This document shows positions 1-64,000 of a stretch of DNA of 64,000 bases, piece by piece (position 1 is the first letter of the stretch; each line of letters starts with the position of its first letter). Made by a program: the position numbers and the translations under genes. The stretch comes from Thunnus maccoyii (Eukaryota; Chordata; Actinopteri; Scombriformes; Scombridae): contig NC_056552.1 of assembly GCF_910596095.1 (NCBI RefSeq), positions 18,424,611 to 18,488,610 on the forward strand, written 5' to 3'. The notes beneath the pieces were generated by a model. The model was given only the letters and a program-made list of their open reading frames with translations. It was not told the DNA's origin and searched no databases.

Positions 1-31184
<31,184 letters not shown>

Positions 31185-48129: not shown

Positions 48130-50801
48130 CAGGGGTGTCCAAACTTTTTTTTAAAGAGGATCTGATAATGTGAAGATTCCCAGGGGCCAGTGGTCCCTTC
48201 TGACATTCTTTAAACAGTAAAAGTTACATACAAGTGCACTGTTCTATAATAATTGTATTTTCATTGTCACAATTATCATTTTTTAAATGGCAATGTAACC
48301 AAATCTAAGCCACTCAGGCGTGAACAAATAAAAAAAAACAATTCTGCCTTTCTTCCACATCTGGAGTCAGATAACATAGAATAAACTGTATGGGATACCT
48401 TAAACTTCCATGAAGTTAATTAAAAATCTTAACCCCATGTTCATTTTAAACGTGACTTATATGAGTAATGCAAAATCTGTTAACATTTAAGCTTAAAACA
48501 TATGACTCTTGCTCTTGTCTTTCACAAGATCATTCAGAAAGTAATATTTTGTATCACATCTACAGGTACAACACCAGCACTTATAGGCAAACCTCATTCA
48601 AAAGCTTAATATACTAAGTGCCAGATGTCCAAGTGCATATATTTATAACTGTGCTTTTGGCTTTTCACTGTTACTATTGACAGATGTTACCATTCAAAAC
48701 ACTCAGAATTTCAGATTGACCAAGAGATGGGTAACTTACTAACACTAATGAGAAGGGTGATATTGAGATCTGGATTTCAGTAGACAGGCCAGGTCTGGTT
48801 TGAGGGAATTGGTTGAGATGCGTAAAATGTTACGTGGGTGGAAGTCATTTAGTCTTGACCTCAAGCAGTTCTTGTTTAAGTTCATGACAGAGAATGTCTT
48901 CTCACACAAATATGTGGAGCCAAATAAGCTTAACATTTTCTTTGCAAATGTTCGCATTTCTGGAAACCTGCCTTTATCCAGCTGCCGGTAAAAGTCAACA
49001 ACAGAAAGCTGCTGGTGTCTGCCACGCCACTCATTGTCACACTGCAGCTCAATGAGCTCCAGCTGCAGCTGTGGCAAAGCATCATGAGGGTCCACGGAGA
49101 AGGGAGAAGAAAAAAGCAACATGTCCTTTTCAATAGCTGCAAAATCCCGAAAGTGTTCCTTAAACTCCACAGAAAAAGATCCAATGGCTGCTGCATACCT
49201 CTTTGTTTACGCACCAATGTTTTCCTGCAGAAAACTGTCCATGACCTCTTGCAAAGCTAAAAAATGTGCGGTGCAGGGTTCAGTTTGTGTCAAGTGTCTC
49301 TGGAAAAGTTGCAACTTGGTTCCAAAGGCCTTAATGTGCGCATACAGTTGGCTCACCACTGCGTCTTGTCCTTGGAGGCTAATGTTCAATGCATTCAGAT
49401 GCTTCTTTATGTCAACCAAAAAAGCTAAATCTGCCAGCCATACAGCATCTGACAGTTCTTGCATCGGTTGTCCCTTTTCAGCCAAAAAATGTCCAATTTC
49501 TTGTCTGAGAGAGAAAAATCGCTGCAGTGCGGAACCCCGACTGAGCCACCTCACATCAGTATGATATACTACATCTCCGTATTCAGCCTGGATGTCAAAC
49601 AGGAACTGCTTAAACTGGCGATGGTAAAGGGCTTTAGAGTGAATAGAATTGATCGCCTTAACCATGGGTTTCATAACATGATTAAATTTGAGATGTTTTG
49701 CGCAGAGAGCCTGCTGGTGAATTATACAGTGGAGTTTAATGGCGTTACCTCCTTCTTCGCTGACTTTGTTGCAGATCACTGTGGACAATACACTTCGTTA
49801 ACCAACCATGGCGGGCGCACCATCGGTAATCATCCCACTAACTTTACTCCATGGTAGTTTCATATCATCAACAGCTGCACAAACAGAAACAAATAAATCC
49901 GTTCCTCGTTTGGCTTTTAAGGCTTTGGAGGTCAAGCAGCTCCTCTGTTACGTTCATGTCATCGTCAACTTCTCTCAAAAAAATCAGTAACTGTGCAGTG
50001 TCAGATGCATCTGTGCTTTCATCACAGGCCAATGAAAAATAATCAAAAGTCACTCCCCTGCCCCCAAGTTGTCTCTGAATATCTGACGATATGTCCTCTA
50101 TTCTCCGTGCCACAGTGTTACGAGCCAGGCAAACGTTAGCAAATTCTTGCTTCTTCTCGGGGCAAATGTTCTCCACCATTTTCATGACACAGTCCTTGAT
50201 AAATGTACCTTCTGTGAAAGGTTTGCCATGTTTGGCGATTAACATGGCAACTTCGTAGCTTGCCTTGGTGACGGATTCATTTGACTCACAGGCCCACATG
50301 AAGAGTCGCTGTTGTGAGGCTAAAGCAGCTTGGAGTTGCTTCACTTTTTTGCGCGCTCACTCCCTGTTAGCTTGTCGTATGTATTAGCATGTTTTGTCTG
50401 GTAGTGTCTCTTTACATTGAATTCCTTAATCAAGGCAACAGTCTCTTGACAAATTAGGCAAACACAATTGCCTCGATTTTCAGCGAAAAAATATTGTAAT
50501 TCCCATCTCTCCTGGAAGCGGCGTCCCTCACGGTCAACTTTCCTCTTTTTATTTACAGGCGCCATGGCAGAAATTAGCGAGAAGGGTTCACAGCAAGGTC
50601 ACAGAGCCTGATAGACTTAAAGTGGTGCTGCCGTCATGAGGTAAAAGGAGAAATTGCATTTTGAACCTTTTATGATTTATTTATTCTGTTTGACAGTCCT
50701 AGCGGGCCATAAATAATACATTATAAAACCAAAGCTGCGGGCCACATAAAATCTGACTGCGGGCCGCGATTGGCCCCCAGGCCGGACTTTGGACATGCCT
50801 G
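48130..50801 (-). mobile_element. hAT DNA transposon, near complete, inactive
   Basis: 2,672 bp. The left end CAGGGGTGTCCAAACTTTTT and the reverse complement of the right end CAGGCATGTCCAAAGTCCGG share the hAT-type terminus. The flanking 8-mers CTCAAAGT (48,122-48,129) and CTCTAAGT (50,802-50,809) match at 7 of 8, the right length for a hAT target duplication. A minus-strand transposase with an N-terminal BED-type finger and a C-terminal hAT dimerisation block fills the body. The ends also carry GGGCC-rich sequence (gggccagtggtccc; gcgggccgcgattggccccc). Confidence 0.88.
48745..50565 (-). pseudogene. hAT transposase pseudogene (BED finger plus hAT dimerisation domain)
   Basis: Runs right to left in four open pieces. 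50,565-50,341: start MAPVNKKRKVDREGRRFQER with a BED-type finger (CVCLICQE...VKRHYQTKHA). 50,344-49,868: catalytic-core start (FDYFSLACDESTDASDTAQL). 49,788-49,207: middle (KLHCIIHQQALCAKHLKFNH; VVYHTDVRWLSRGSALQRFF). 49,170-48,745: dimerisation block (LFGSTYLCEKTFSVMNLNKN, then LRSRLND...ILRIS). Breaks: a 1-nt shift at an A run near 50,350, a second frame change near 49,910, a TAA near 49,805 and a TAA near 49,205. It resembles the fish ZBED/GTF2IRD2-like hAT transposases. Not expected to make full-length protein. Confidence 0.85.
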
Positions 50802-58230: not shown

Positions 58231-58612
58231 TTGAGGTTGTTCCATGGGCTGTTCAAGTTGTCCGCTTGCATATTTTGGATCGGATTCAGCTCAAACATGT
58301 AGGGATGTCACTGAGAAGTTTATGTTTTGAGTAAATAAATGAGGAAAAGAAGCGAAATGTTTGTTTACGTAGCCTCAGGAGAAGGGCAGCTTCTGGAGGC
58401 TAACCAATCAGAACAGAGTGGGCTCACTGGGAGGGCAGAGACAGGAGCTTAAACAGCCTGTTTCAGACAGAGGCTGAACTGAGGGGCTGCATTAAGGGCC
58501 AGTGTAAGATAAATAAAAAGTGTTTTAAACTGTAAATCATGCAAAGATATTATAGTAGTAACCCCAGAATATGAATATTGATCTGGAAATGTGCATTATA
58601 TATACTCTTTAA
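58231..58612. mobile_element. dispersed repeat, right half
   Basis: Contains GGAGGCTAACCAATCAGAAC and CTGTTTCAGACAGAGGCTGA, motifs I associate with a common fish repeat, and ends at about GCATTATATATACTCTTTAA. Probably continuous with 55,790-56,021 before the Harbinger insertion. The family is not named. Confidence 0.35.
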
Positions 58613-59132
58613 GTTCACATCACTGGTAATAACAAAACATTGACTGAAATAAGGAAAATTTCACCATAAAGTGTGAACAAAAGAAGCTTCCTGAGCTGCT
58701 TGTTGTTTTCACGACAGATGTCATCTCCATCGACTACACACATAATGACAAGAAATGTATGTTATGGATGTATTTTGTAGCCCAGGCTTTAAAATGACAC
58801 CCTATAATATTAGAATTATCCCTTTTAAAACAATTCATTTTATTTTGAAACAAACAAATAATTAATTTAGGGTGATTATATACATTAAGAAAATAATAAT
58901 ACGAAGAACTATTAAAAAGTGTTGGTATAGAAATAACATTTGGAGTAAATATCATTCAAATAATTCATATAAATGACTACATCTGTTGAAAGTTGTTTAA
59001 AATCATGAAACTATGTGCATAAAGGGAGAAACACAGCCAACATTGTATTTTCCAAGCAGCAGTGAAGGGCTCAGTATGACAAGATCCCCACATAACAAAT
59101 CAATGAACCCCACTAGTCCCAGGTGATCGGCT
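58613..59132. other. AT-rich spacer left of the gag-pro unit
   Basis: 520 bp with no recognisable feature. The outer boundary of the left arm may lie within 59,090-59,133, but the right arm runs off the window so it cannot be fixed. Confidence 0.5.
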
Positions 59133-59873
59133 GCAGTTCCGCTTCCTGTTATAACTTCCTGTTTTAAAAAACAGCCTATGCTGGCTACCTCGAGTGCTGA
59201 TGGGACATAGAGAAAATAAAATCTTTTGCCATCCGTTGGATTGTAAAGCAGCGTGAGAGGCCGGATGATTTTCGCGGGTCTGCCGAGGTGAAATGCTGTA
59301 AACCTCGTTCATACTTTGACTCAGCGGTCAGGTTTTTGGTGATACCATAAAGAAAAAGGGGACGCAGCCAGTACTTCCTGCTGGACTCCTGCAAGGCTTC
59401 AGATCCCTAGACCCAGAGATTCCCAGTGTGAACTGGGTGGCGAGCCGAACCGAACCACTGGTATTGAACCTGAGATGCGTGCAGGGTTCCTTGGTTTCTC
59501 CTTTCTCACAGACCGTGCGGTAGGACTAAAATAGACAGTGATACACTGACAATTGGTCGGAAAAAGGGCCCCAACGCAATAAGGACTAACTTTGGGAACA
59601 AAGGGTATCTTTTGTTTTATTTTGCCGGCTTTATTATTTTAGTTTGTTATTTTTCATACATTGTTCTTTCCAAAAAAAAGCTGTTGTATTACATGTTGAC
59701 CTTCAGCTTGAAATAACAAGTGGCCACAAACATACAAACCATTGTAGTCTGTGTCATTATTGATGTTCAAAATATTGGCTCTTAAAAGTTTAGTGTCTTC
59801 TGTTACTGGTCCAGTTATTACTATTGACTATTAATTACCTGTGCTCTGTTATTACATCGTAACAAGGGTTACA
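59133..59873 (+). repeat. left inverted arm (LTR/leader-like, intronless)
   Basis: About 741 bp that reappears in reverse orientation at 62,480-64,000. Three blocks correspond to putative exons of the right arm: 59,133-59,239, 59,240-59,326 and 59,327-59,873, joined without the right arm's two extra segments. Its last bases GGGTTACA sit where a Ty3/gypsy 5' LTR should end, just before a TGG primer-site-like sequence. Over the 547-bp inner block I count about a dozen differences from the right arm. Confidence 0.85.
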
Positions 59874-59877
59874 GAAT

Positions 59878-59897
59878 TGGCGAGCCAGCCAGGAGCC
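59878..59897 (+). other. candidate tRNA primer-binding site
   Basis: TGGCGAGCCAGCCAGGAGCC lies 4 nt after the arm end. A primer site begins TGG because tRNA ends in CCA. The tRNA type was not identified. Confidence 0.4.
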
Positions 59898-59904
59898 AAT
59901 TAAT

Positions 59905-61614
59905 TTGAATATCAATACTGAAATCATGTCCAATATGGACTTTGTACAAAGGTCTGGTGTTAAAATCCCAAATACAGTTATTGTTAATGGTCTGACACAG
60001 ATAGCTGATCAAGATGAACAGGTAATTAACTATCTAAAGAAGTATGGCAAAATTGAGAGATCCCTTGTTGTTGATGATCTATCAGACGAACTCTACCAAA
60101 ACCTGATCGTTGAGTACTCGAGTGGTTCAGCCTTGGAAGGCTTAGAACCTCACTTGCCGCTTACGTACACAGTACATAGCAATCCCCCCATTGCCTATGA
60201 AGTAAAGTTACTAAGCAGTGTGTACACTACTAAGATCGGCAGCAATGTTACCAAGACATATCTGGCTGAGCTCAAGGAGCTGGCTAAGCAGAGTGGTAAA
60301 GATTATGGTGAGGTGCTGAAAGAAATGATGTCTCAGATAGGTGAAGATGTTGAAGCTATGCAACCCCGAGCTGAGGGCTCTCCCCCCACACCTGCTGAGC
60401 CCACTGTCTTCATACCTTCACCTCTGGGCCCTGAGCAACAGCCTCTCATCTCATTCTCAGATATATCACCAAGCAATAATGGCTTAGGTGCCACTGACTC
60501 TGCCCTACTCACAAATGAAAAGAGATTACCATCCCTTTCGTTAAGTGATATGAATCCACCTGAAGTCCAGAAGGTCGTGGTTGAGCACATCGTACGGAGA
60601 CAGGATGCTGTCCCACAAGTGCAATCCCCAGTGAGACTCCGCTCCTTCTCTGGAAAGGCCCCCAGACCTAATAATGAAACCGACTATGATACTTGGCGCT
60701 CACATATTGAGCTGCTCCAAACTGATTCCAGCATGTCCCCCCTGCAAATATCCAGAAAGATCTTTGAGAGCTTGCTCCCGCCCGCAGCTGACGTTGTCAA
60801 AGGGCTACGGCCTGAGTCACCCCCTTCAGCCTATCTACAGCTACTAGACTCAGCTTTTGGCACTGTGGAAGATGGGGAGGAACTTTTCGCTCGATTCCTG
60901 AACACCCTCCAAGATCTGGGTGAGAGGCCCTCCGCTTACCTCCATCGGCTGCAGCTAGTTTTAAACCTTGTGATAAAAAGGGGCGGTGTTGCACACGAGG
61001 AAGTAGACAGACACCTTCTTAAGCAGTTCTGCAGGGGGTGTTGGGATAATGCCTTGCTCAACACCCTGCAACTCGAACAAAAGAAAAGTAGTCCACCCAC
61101 ATTTTCAGATCTCTTGCTAATGATACGCTCTGAAGAAGACAAACAGCAAGCGAAAGCCAGTCGTATGAAAAAACATATGGGTGCTACAAAGCAGAAAGCC
61201 CAGTTGCAGTTCCATGGTGCATGTGCCTGTGTGCCAGAGGAGAGTCATGAGATCGGCCTCAGTGCTATTGAGGACTTGAGGAAACAGGTGGTTAGTCTAC
61301 AGAGTCAACTAACCTCATTCATGCAATCGAAAAGGACAAAGGGAGGTGGCAACAAGGGAGCAGCTGGGAAGTTTCAGAGTAGAGTATCAGGGCCAGATGA
61401 TGCCAAGACAGACATGCGAGAACCGATCAAAAAGAACCCGGCAAACAAACCCAAACCCGGGTACTGCTTTAACTGCGGGGAAGATGGACACATTGCTCCA
61501 TCTTGCACCAGCACAGCAAACCCAGCTTTAGTAGCTGAAAAGAGGAAGCAGTTTGAGGAAAAGCAGCACAGGTGGGAAACACAAAATGGTCCCAGCCCGC
61601 CTTTAAACGAGTAA
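59905..61614 (+). CDS. Gag polyprotein of a Ty3/gypsy-type element, PNMA-like
   Basis: 569 codons, no stop. The N-terminal about 120 residues look RRM-like (IPNTVIVNGLTQIADQDEQV, then KKYGKIERSLVV), as in PNMA-type Gag proteins. A disordered linker follows (residues about 150-245). The capsid region (about 246-430) starts LRSFSGKAPRPNNETDYDTW and includes a block ending LFARFLNTLQDLGERPSAYL. A coiled stretch (IEDLRKQVVSLQSQLTSFMQ) precedes one CCHC zinc knuckle, CFNCGEDGHIAPSC (about 526-539). The stop TAA at 61,612-61,614 lies between the slippery site and a stem. Start: an in-frame ATG at 59,929 is an alternative. Family known to form particles and package RNA; domesticated relatives include PNMA and ZCCHC12. 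Intactness suggests a recent insertion or selection. Confidence 0.88.
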   Translation: MNINTEIMSNMDFVQRSGVKIPNTVIVNGLTQIADQDEQVINYLKKYGKIERSLVVDDLSDELYQNLIVEYSSGSALEGLEPHLPLTYTVHSNPPIAYEVKLLSSVYTTKIGSNVTKTYLAELKELAKQSGKDYGEVLKEMMSQIGEDVEAMQPRAEGSPPTPAEPTVFIPSPLGPEQQPLISFSDISPSNNGLGATDSALLTNEKRLPSLSLSDMNPPEVQKVVVEHIVRRQDAVPQVQSPVRLRSFSGKAPRPNNETDYDTWRSHIELLQTDSSMSPLQISRKIFESLLPPAADVVKGLRPESPPSAYLQLLDSAFGTVEDGEELFARFLNTLQDLGERPSAYLHRLQLVLNLVIKRGGVAHEEVDRHLLKQFCRGCWDNALLNTLQLEQKKSSPPTFSDLLLMIRSEEDKQQAKASRMKKHMGATKQKAQLQFHGACACVPEESHEIGLSAIEDLRKQVVSLQSQLTSFMQSKRTKGGGNKGAAGKFQSRVSGPDDAKTDMREPIKKNPANKPKPGYCFNCGEDGHIAPSCTSTANPALVAEKRKQFEEKQHRWETQNGPSPPLNE

Positions 61615-61644
61615 CAGGCCCTGTTGCGGGACAAACAGGGGCTG
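61602..61644 (+). promoter_or_regulatory. -1 programmed ribosomal frameshift signal
   Basis: The heptamer TTTAAAC (61,602-61,608) is in the gag frame as T TTA AAC, the X XXY YYZ arrangement. A 6-nt spacer with the gag stop follows, then a stem: 61,615-61,624 (CAGGCCCTGT) pairs with 61,635-61,644 (ACAGGGGCTG) at 9 of 10 positions around a 10-nt loop. Slipping back one base enters the protease frame at CGA GTA ACA. Confidence 0.82.
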
Positions 61645-62501
61645 AGGAGAGTCAACAACGTCCCCCAGATGTAAACAAACCCCCAGCTGCAAGAGTCAAA
61701 GCCCAATCCTGTTCCAGCCTGGAACATGTGTATCAAAACCCACCTTTCCGGCTTCCCAAGCGGTTGGTTGGCACCAAGAGTACGGCTCGAGTGACCATAA
61801 AAGACGAAGCAGTCAACTGCCTGCTTGACACAGGTTCACAAGTAACAACCATTCCTCAGTCGTTCTACAGACAACATCTTTCAGAGCAAGAGATCAAGCC
61901 ATTATTCAACCTCCTAGAGGTAGAGGGGGCAGCGGGGCAGTCCGTCCCCTATTTGGGCTATGTTGAGTTGGCTGTAACTTTCCCAAAAGAACTTGTGGGG
62001 GCATCAGTTGATGTAAACACACTTGCCCTAGTCATACCTGACTTTGAAGCCGTCACAGAGCCCCTTGTGCTTATAGGCACTAATACCCTTGATGTGCTCT
62101 ATGACATCTATTCCAAAACTGGAATGACACATCAGCCTACCCCGCACGGTTACAGAGCAGTCCTTAAAGTACTTGAGGTGAGACACAAGCGGGCAAACGA
62201 CATCGAGCCCTGCGGTGTAGTGAGGCTACATGGGAAGAGCTCCCAAATCATTCCAGCTGGTGAAACTGTTGTACTGGAAGGAGTTGCTCCAATGAACGGG
62301 TTCCAGAGCGAGAAGTCCGTTCTTATCGAACACCCATCTTCATCCTCCTTGCCAGGTGGTTTGCTTGTTAAAGCTGCCCTGATTGATCTTCCCCAGCGGC
62401 GTCCCAATAAGCTACCAGTTGTGATCTGTAATGAGTCCGATCATGATATTGCCATTCCTGCAAAGTGCACAATAGCACATGTAACCCTTGTTACGATGTA
62501 A
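61608..62501 (+). CDS. retroviral-type aspartic protease frame (Pro), truncated pol
   Basis: Open from 61,572 in the -1 frame and probably reached by frameshifting at 61,608; about 297 codons from there. The protease active-site block is VNCLLDTGSQVTTIPQSFYR (DTG, about 61,825-61,833), and the second conserved block is LVLIGTNTLDVLYD (about 62,068-62,109). A spacer follows (VVRLHGKSSQIIPAGETVVL) ending NESDHDIAIPAKCTIAHVTL, then a TAA that belongs to the inverted arm. In a full element reverse transcriptase, RNase H and integrase would follow; none is present, so the unit is not autonomous. The last eight or so codons come from the arm, so the C-terminus is not native. Confidence 0.85.
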   Translation, partial: RVTGPVAGQTGAEESQQRPPDVNKPPAARVKAQSCSSLEHVYQNPPFRLPKRLVGTKSTARVTIKDEAVNCLLDTGSQVTTIPQSFYRQHLSEQEIKPLFNLLEVEGAAGQSVPYLGYVELAVTFPKELVGASVDVNTLALVIPDFEAVTEPLVLIGTNTLDVLYDIYSKTGMTHQPTPHGYRAVLKVLEVRHKRANDIEPCGVVRLHGKSSQIIPAGETVVLEGVAPMNGFQSEKSVLIEHPSSSSLPGGLLVKAALIDLPQRRPNKLPVVICNESDHDIAIPAKCTIAHVTLVTM

Positions 62502-62514
62502 TAACAGAGCACAG

Positions 62515-62520
62515 GTAAGT
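62515..62520 (+). promoter_or_regulatory. strong 5' splice-site match CAG/GTAAGT
   Basis: Perfect donor consensus 14 nt after the Pro stop, on the sense strand of gag-pro, in the right arm. The left arm copy has GTAATT instead. No acceptor in the window was assigned. Confidence 0.3.
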
Positions 62521-62716
62521 AATAGTCAATAGTAATAACTGGACCAGTAACAGAAGACACTAAGCTTTTAAGAGCCAATATTTTGAACATCAATAATGAC
62601 ACAGACTACAATGGTTTGTATGTTTGTGGCCACTTGTTATTTCAAGCTGAAGGTCAACATGTAATACAACAGTTTTTTTTGGAAAGAACAATGTATGAAA
62701 AATAACAAACTAAAAT

Positions 62717-62722
62717 AATAAA
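62717..62722 (+). terminator. AATAAA downstream of the protease stop
   Basis: Lies 216 nt after the Pro stop codon, within the right arm read in sense direction. Could end a gag-pro transcript; motif match only. Confidence 0.4.
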
Positions 62723-63025
62723 GCCGGCAAAATAAAACAAAAGATACCCTTTGTTCCCAAAGTTAGTCCTTATTGCGTTGGGGCCTTTTTTCTGACCAAA
62801 TGTCAGTGTGTCACCGTCTATTTTAGTCCTACCACACGGTCCGTGAGAAAGGAGAAACCAAGGAACCCTGCACGCATCTCAGGTTCAATACCAGTGGTTC
62901 GGTTCGGCTCGCCACCCAGTTCACACTGGGAATCTCTAGGTCTAGGGATCTGAAGCCTTGCAGGAGTCCAGCAGGAAGTTCTGGCTGCGTCCCCTTTTTC
63001 TTTATGGTATCACCAAAAACCTGAC

Positions 63026-63719
63026 CTAGAGACAGGCCAGATGAGATCCAAATATCTCATTACATTCATACTGTCTGCATAAATCATGTTCATTTTCTAA
63101 TCTCCCATGAATTATTACCAATTAATAATAATATTTTGTATTAATTAGTTCAATCATGTTCTCAAAAAGGTTTAGTTGTACAACAAAAATATATCTTTAG
63201 TTTCAAGTGTTCATTTGTAGTTGTGTAACTATAAATACATTCAAAGTGCTAGTTATAATCATGTTCAATTACACATTAATAACCATCTACAAATACTCAA
63301 AATTATGTGGTTACACAAGTAACTGACAAAAGTACATTTCACAAAAATAAAATAAAATACTGTGGAGTACCCCTTTAATTTGGTCAAAATTGCATCAAAT
63401 GCAGCAAACATTAATAGTAACATGAGGCATTAAGGCTTAACGTGCTTAATTGTCTCTCCTTGCACCGGTAACAGTGAGAGATTGCACTAAATATTAACCT
63501 CTTTAATTACTATAAACATAAAATAAACATAAATTGCACGTAACACCAAATAATCATGCCAGCTAAGTGGCTAGGCTCAAGTTAACACGCTATTAGCATC
63601 ACAAAACACAGTCTCAGATAGAGCACTATTAGCACCTTTTAATGGCTATCAGCGCCAATTAACATAAATATCAGCTGCCTTACAGTCATCTTAACAGGTT
63701 TTATAGTGTTTTCACTCAC
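63026..63719 (-). other. intron-like segment 2 (694 bp, GT-AG)
   Basis: On the minus strand it starts GTGAGT and ends GCCTGTCTCTAG. The left arm joins GACTCAGCG to GTCAGGTTTTTGG at 59,326/59,327 without it. No coding or repeat was recognised inside; it is AT-rich. Confidence 0.75.
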
Positions 63720-63805
63720 CGCTGAGTCAAAGTATGAACGAGGTTTACAGCATTTCACCTCGGCAGACCCGCGAAATCATCCGGCCTCTCACGCTGCTTT
63801 ACAAT

Positions 63806-63894
63806 CTTAAATGCAACAGTATGGCGGTCAGCAGCTGTTTAACATCATCTAGAATTAATATTACTTCGTTTAGAAGATCATTTTTAGTTCTTAC
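63806..63894 (-). other. intron-like segment 1 (89 bp, GT-AG)
   Basis: On the minus strand it starts GTAAGA and ends GCATTTAAG. The left arm joins its flanks exactly (CCGTTGG to ATTGTAAAG at 59,239/59,240). Size and ends fit a short spliceosomal intron. Confidence 0.75.
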
Positions 63895-63971
63895 CCAACG
63901 GATGGCAAAAGATTTTATTTTCTCTATGTCCCATCAGCACTCGAGGTAGCCAGCATAGGTTGTTTTTTAAA

Positions 63972-64000
63972 ACAGGAAGTTATAACAGGAAGCGGAACTG
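63972..64000 (-). promoter_or_regulatory. triple GGAA (ETS-type) cluster in arm block 1
   Basis: Three GGAA cores lie in about 28 bp (ACAGGAAG, ACAGGAAG, GCGGAAC), mirrored at 59,134-59,163. ETS-type sites near a start are typical of TATA-less promoters, so a transcription start for the spliced leader may lie close. Motif match only. Confidence 0.35.

Follow-up and report, generated by a model that had tools for sequence, protein, structure and literature searches.

Two apparently nested, antiparallel copies of a PNMA-gag Gypsy/Ty3-type retroelement in Thunnus maccoyii, with and without two putative introns in the long terminal repeat

A stretch of 64,000 nucleotides of the Thunnus maccoyii genome (contig NC_056552.1, positions 18,424,611 to 18,488,610; hereafter the window) ends in a retroelement whose gag and protease genes lie between two near-identical arms. 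These arms face each other, and only one of them is interrupted by two segments with GT and AG ends. How could such a pair have arisen? The initial annotation took the arms to be unlike long terminal repeats (LTRs) and proposed one element in a palindromic arrangement, its left arm derived from spliced RNA by reverse transcription and its right arm keeping introns. We propose instead that the locus holds two nested copies, A and B, of one family of Gypsy/Ty3 (Metaviridae-type) elements with a PNMA-type gag, and we consider it likely, from their sequences, that A arose via a spliced RNA and B via an unspliced one.

Two segments distinguish otherwise near-identical arms

The near-identity of the arms and their inverted orientation were confirmed by an inverted-pair search and by BLAST. 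Aligned over 738 columns, the left arm (59132-59873) differs from the right arm, which is inverted (62480-64000), by 12 substitutions and two single-base gaps. The resulting divergence (Kimura two-parameter distance, K2P, 0.0165 over 738 sites) marks them as close kin. The longest BLAST piece spans 548 columns at 97.8% identity, in agreement with the first estimate of about 98% over 547 bp. Five of the six inverted pairs found come from the arms: 59134-59239/63895-64000 (99%), 59239-59271/63774-63806 (100%), 59270-59331/63715-63776 (98%), 59326-59679/62673-63026 (97%) and 59668-59873/62480-62685 (98%). The sixth is a 74% pair elsewhere.

As the initial annotation had stated, segments of 89 and 694 nt are confined to the right arm (junctions 63805/63895 and 63025/63720). 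Both begin with GT(A/G)AG and end with AG on the same, minus strand (GTAAGA...AAG and GTGAGT...TAG), and both are absent from the left arm to the base. The left arm is joined at the two positions exactly as splicing would join exons. When splice sites were scored with approximate weight matrices, the donors of the 89-nt segment (intron 1, TGG/GTAAGA) and the 694-nt segment (intron 2, GCG/GTGAGT) ranked second and first among the 1512 donor positions of the arm; the acceptors ranked 20th and second among 1502. Boundary placement is ambiguous by no more than 1 and 3 bases, and the possible placements include GT-AG. In 200,000 random segments per length, drawn from the minus strand of the window with the same slide tolerance, GT-AG ends occurred at rates of 0.8% (89 nt) and 1.5% (694 nt), giving a joint rate of about 1.2e-4, in which donor strength plays no part. 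Of the marks of a U2-type intron, GT-AG ends, a consensus donor and precise absence from a related copy were found; an acceptor with pyrimidine tract and branch site is good in intron 2 but weak in intron 1, where a branch-like CTGAC lies at -23.

In neither segment are the ends linked by an inverted-repeat pair, only weak internal repeats being present, and a BLAST search with intron 2 (E 1e-3) revealed no similarity in the rest of the window (64 kb). The lack of end-joining repeats, together with an end ambiguity of 1 and 3 bp, makes the segments unlike transposon insertions. Miniature inverted-repeat transposable elements and introners were rejected as candidates for want of such a repeat pair.

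The right arm probably belongs to a second copy

The last residues of the pro-pol frame of copy A before it runs into the right arm are ...IPAKCTIA. This break, at 62479/62480, coincides exactly with the CA end of that arm (LTR-B), the CA end being the one that integrase joins to target DNA. We aligned 16 relatives, picked among the best 120 of 248 matches: 13 of the 16 read past the break, and the other three (P0001, P0006 and P0010) end or diverge earlier. Pfam scans of three relatives placed RVT_1 downstream in P0033 and P0043; P0004 stops before RVT_1. Copy A up to the LTR-B cut is without reverse transcriptase (RT), RNase H and integrase domains. A break at the exact CA end, within a frame that relatives continue, indicates a second copy, B, which lies antiparallel in A and has the right arm as its LTR. 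The left arm (LTR-A) ends in GGGTTACA, again with CA, and the primer-binding site (PBS) follows four bases on, which marks the point where a 5' LTR meets its PBS.

On the sequence, this is ordinary nesting: two copies of one family stand head to head, B having inserted in the pol frame of A. The arms are therefore LTRs after all, one from each copy, and the single palindromic element is not borne out. Describing the locus as a gag-protease gene is also misleading, since the relatives imply a gag-pro-pol element cut by the insertion. A DNA transposon with terminal inverted repeats was rejected because the right arm starts in the cut pol frame at a CA end and the left arm precedes a PBS. A Penelope-like element was rejected because a PNMA gag and a PBS are present, although no endonuclease search was made. 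The TG start assigned to LTR-A would lie 2 bp outside the stretch comparable with LTR-B, and by this measure LTR-B is probably short of just two bases at 64000. Copy B may be a full-length element or a solo LTR, the window ending in LTR-B. The features of both copies are listed in Table 1.

Table 1. Features of the nested copies, in window coordinates
Feature	Position	Strand	Basis
LTR-A, 5' LTR of copy A, intronless, TGCAGTTCC...GGGTTACA, 742 bp	59132..59873	+	LTR-B alignment; CA end
Three TTCC (ETS-type core) motifs	59137, 59143, 59156	+	motif search
TATA-like TTTTAAAA	59162..59169	+	motif search
Sole AATAAA of LTR-A, 19 nt upstream of intron 1 position	59215..59220	+	motif search
Exon 1/exon 2 junction in LTR-A, site of LTR-B intron 1	59239..59240	+	arm comparison
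Exon 2/exon 3 junction in LTR-A, site of LTR-B intron 2	59326..59327	+	arm comparison
PBS, 18/18 complementary to tRNA-Arg(ACG) 3' end	59878..59895	+	sequence comparison
gag of copy A, intact open reading frame (ORF), PNMA-type capsid and CCHC knuckle	59926..61614	+	Pfam, PDB
TTTAAAC slippery heptamer in gag phase; one codon, then gag stop	61602..61608	+	motif search
Protease and start of pol, -1 frame, cut at 62479/62480; ORF enters LTR-B, stop at 62501	61602..62479	+	
Predicted H-type pseudoknot: stem 1 61615-61625/61634-61644 (10/11 pairs), stem 2 61628-61632/61660-61664	61615..61664	+	
LTR-B of copy B, inverted, intron-bearing, reaches window end	62480..64000	-	inverted pairs and BLAST
Exon 3 of LTR-B, TTACA end at junction with copy A pol frame	62480..63025	-	BLAST vs LTR-A
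Putative intron 2, 694 nt, GTGAGT...TCTCTAG; 24 ATG	63026..63719	-	arm alignment, splice scoring
Exon 2 of LTR-B	63720..63805	-	BLAST vs LTR-A and splice scoring
Putative intron 1, 89 nt, GTAAGA...TTTAAG; branch-like CTGAC at -23; 3 ATG	63806..63894	-	arm alignment, splice scoring
Exon 1 of LTR-B	63895..64000	-	BLAST vs LTR-A and splice scoring

Spliced and unspliced RNAs as probable sources of the copies

Because B integrated into A, A is the older insertion, and the intronless state preceded the arrival of an intron-bearing copy. This holds for A unless exact deletions removed the two introns at a later time, and for B unless its introns were gained later. The base-exact GT-AG difference is best explained, as first proposed, by a left arm copied from spliced RNA and a right arm that kept its introns. 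Splicing itself and the RNA origin of each copy would then be read from the two LTRs as follows.

Transcription would start near 59190, in a U3 that is very short and occupies the left end of the LTR; this position is set by the TATA-like box at 59162, to which we assign a putative promoter role. In the transcript, both introns would belong to U5 and follow the poly(A) signal; with the U3/R/U5 borders that we infer, they would fall at or after the R/U5 border. The 5' leader would be spliced in only some RNA molecules. For copy A, on the plus strand, the genomic RNA would have been spliced before reverse transcription, giving an LTR without introns. For copy B it would have been reverse-transcribed unspliced, with the introns kept, and the product later integrated antiparallel in the pol of A. 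Introns at or after the R/U5 border would be present only at the RNA 5' end. Since that end provides the U5 of each LTR in a new copy, a spliced genome would yield an intronless copy in one cycle, both LTRs losing the introns together, and an unspliced genome would keep them. Should the introns be ancestral, reverse transcription in this family would seem to have used genomic RNA in both its spliced and its unspliced form.

Several points weigh against this account. The comparison is of a single LTR pair, made in DNA sequence alone. The body of copy B, the 3' part of copy A, the target-site duplications and any second LTR would lie beyond the window end (64000). The acceptor of intron 1 is weak, as 2422 of 127920 window positions score equally well. 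The protease of copy A contains LLDTGS, but it reaches only 18.6 bits with PF13975 against a cut-off of 28.2; the protease region of the three relatives scanned likewise falls below protease cut-offs.

A further point of this kind is that the order A before B is also compatible with a later gain, in which the family was intronless and the lineage of copy B acquired two introns by introner-like insertions or reverse splicing. Such a gain would need two independent events, both with strong donors, within a K2P of 0.0165, and neither the segment ends, which lack joining inverted repeats, nor intron 2, which lacks a relative in the window at E 1e-3, speaks for it. We regard it as improbable. Near-identical inverted arms are prone to errors in assembly, and two separate copies might have been misjoined. 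However, a join exactly at the LTR CA end is what integration predicts, not what a mis-join within the repeat predicts, and a mis-join would leave the intron difference in place; an artefact is thus very improbable.

Autointegration, in which one cDNA attacks itself and leaves a single element with inverted LTRs, is known from Ty1. Its geometry would be that seen here, with an inverted LTR attached within pol precisely by the CA end. Nevertheless, in established retroviral reverse transcription a single strong-stop DNA supplies U5 to the two LTRs of a cDNA, which would then agree in intron status, whereas here the status differs and 12 substitutions separate the two; we give this explanation hardly any weight. 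Two DNA deletions in LTR-A, an event type that is common and for which each boundary offers 1-3 bp of microhomology, would have had to match donor and acceptor exactly both times (joint GT-AG rate 1.2e-4, donor strength uncounted), and this is the least credible explanation.

A possible role of the introns

If the two copies do stem from spliced and unspliced RNA, the introns may have a use. The exonic LTR contains seven ATG triplets, six of them downstream of the proposed start, and the introns add 3 and 24, so that splicing would shorten the gag leader and clear its ATGs largely, although not wholly. A metavirus family might keep two U5 introns as a switch: the unspliced form would act as genome, and the spliced form, which lacks the 27 intronic AUGs, would be the mRNA for Gag, with some spliced RNA leaking into particles and founding intronless copies. 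We offer this only tentatively, as somewhat less than an even chance. By analogy with the HIV-2 leader intron, a genome/mRNA switch would be the most attractive function.

U5 introns should disappear in one round if the genomic RNA is spliced. An intron-bearing copy that integrates after an intronless one would therefore mean that unspliced RNA still serves as genome, and the choice between mRNA and genome in a Ty3-type element becomes directly testable. If true, the locus would be a natural counterpart of the intron-marked retrotransposition assay. In the intron-marker assays of Ty1 and L1, loss of the donor intron in the new copy is the proof of an RNA intermediate; here, in contrast, nature supplies the marker, which sits in the LTR and occurs in both states in the genome.

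Comparison with known systems

In HIV-2/SIVmac, an R-U5 leader intron is removed from part of the RNAs. The likeness is that the whole intron sits upstream of gag, within the 5' leader supplied by the LTR, and that both RNA forms encode gag; the differences are one intron instead of two and a different family. We know of no fixed proviral copies of HIV-2/SIVmac that have lost the leader intron. Deltaretroviruses and foamy viruses have a splice donor in R and the acceptor outside the LTR. They thus share a 5' splice site inside the LTR with the element described here, but no whole intron within it.

A close comparison is with the PNMA-gag Gypsy/Ty3 (Metaviridae) elements of fishes, which share the PNMA capsid gag, CCHC knuckle, -1 frame protease and tRNA PBS and whose relatives show the pol frame. 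The difference lies in the two whole introns in the LTR, although the relatives were compared by their proteins and their LTRs may share the introns. For Penelope-like elements, introns, inverted pLTRs and secondary insertion in opposite orientation are described (PMC3846280). Intron-bearing copies, inverted repeats and an opposite secondary insertion are common to both, but Penelope-like elements have RT plus a GIY-YIG endonuclease and are not of the gag/PBS kind, whereas here nesting accounts for the inversion and LTRs form the ends. Within the open-licence papers listed as matches, no title or start of an abstract pointed to a Gypsy LTR with a complete intron in it; PMC4256276, on conjugation, and PMC7557097, on a cereal expression system, were set aside as off-topic.

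Coding region and signals of copy A

Copy A has two marks of a Gypsy/Ty3 element, a PBS just inside the 5' LTR and a gag with capsid and zinc knuckle. The PBS was compared with what we take to be the tRNA-Arg(ACG) sequence, and ARAGORN calls that sequence Arg(acg). Gag matched PF14893 (6.7e-22, 78.1 bits, cut-off 25) and PF00098 (1.5e-4, 22.2 bits, cut-off 20.8) as well as PNMA2 chains in PDB. The nearest protein, from Thunnus thynnus, is 98% identical over the full length of gag, and a second T. thynnus protein is 96% identical over 63%. The named relatives are zinc finger CCHC domain-containing protein 18-like and 12-like proteins and paraneoplastic antigen Ma homologues.

Three heptamers stand in gag phase, two of them further upstream (59967 and 60960) and the third, TTTAAAC, adjoining the gag stop. 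GGGAAAC near 61573 was rejected as a frameshift site, being out of gag phase. With a home-made score, none of 500 shuffles was as good as the predicted pseudoknot. The plain RNA fold of 61609-61700 did not stand out (z = -0.45, with 70 of 200 shuffles equally good), the program used scoring no pseudoknots.

Within LTR exon 3, a second tRNA-Arg-like primer motif of 9 nt, TGGCGAGCC, occurs at 59438-59446 (inverted copy 62906-62914). The motif may have been left over from a shorter LTR that came before; the same 9-mer is also found at 23743, outside the element, so that chance is possible. Intron 2 contains GGGGTACTCC on its sense strand (63364-63373, minus), presumably a motif of fish repeats. 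LTR-B also carries a consensus donor, CAG/GTAAGT, on the plus strand, that is, in sense with gag-pro (62512-62520). LTR-A has a substitution at the equivalent position, and its antisense strand is without this donor.

Other copies and other features of the window

Within the whole window, a BLAST comparison with low-complexity filtering and a cut-off of E 1e-3 matched the element to nothing but itself and its arms. Searches of viral contigs gave 9 pattern stretches for gag and 17 for the pro/pol alignment, none of them confirmed, and 0 each for the PBS and an exon 2 string; in prokaryote contigs, the pro/pol alignment gave 321 stretches, likewise none confirmed. A 17-mer of exon 1 occurred at 17 loci, of which 4 have matches of 20-38 bases to the element. 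The best such locus (27 bases, E 5.8e-7) lies in a bacterial contig that had been chosen by that very 17-mer and was rejected as chance. No Rfam match passed the gathering threshold in 58500-64000, and no tRNA genes were found in the window.

Elsewhere, 5000-28594 holds long low-complexity ORFs that resemble exon pieces of a large host gene, which may be BAHCC1-like; the three pieces scanned gave no Pfam match. On the minus strand, 48745-50356 contains a broken hAT-type transposase, in which a middle piece is without match, another piece shows DUF4371 below threshold (17.8 vs 32.1 bits) and one piece carries a hAT dimerisation domain (1.8e-5).

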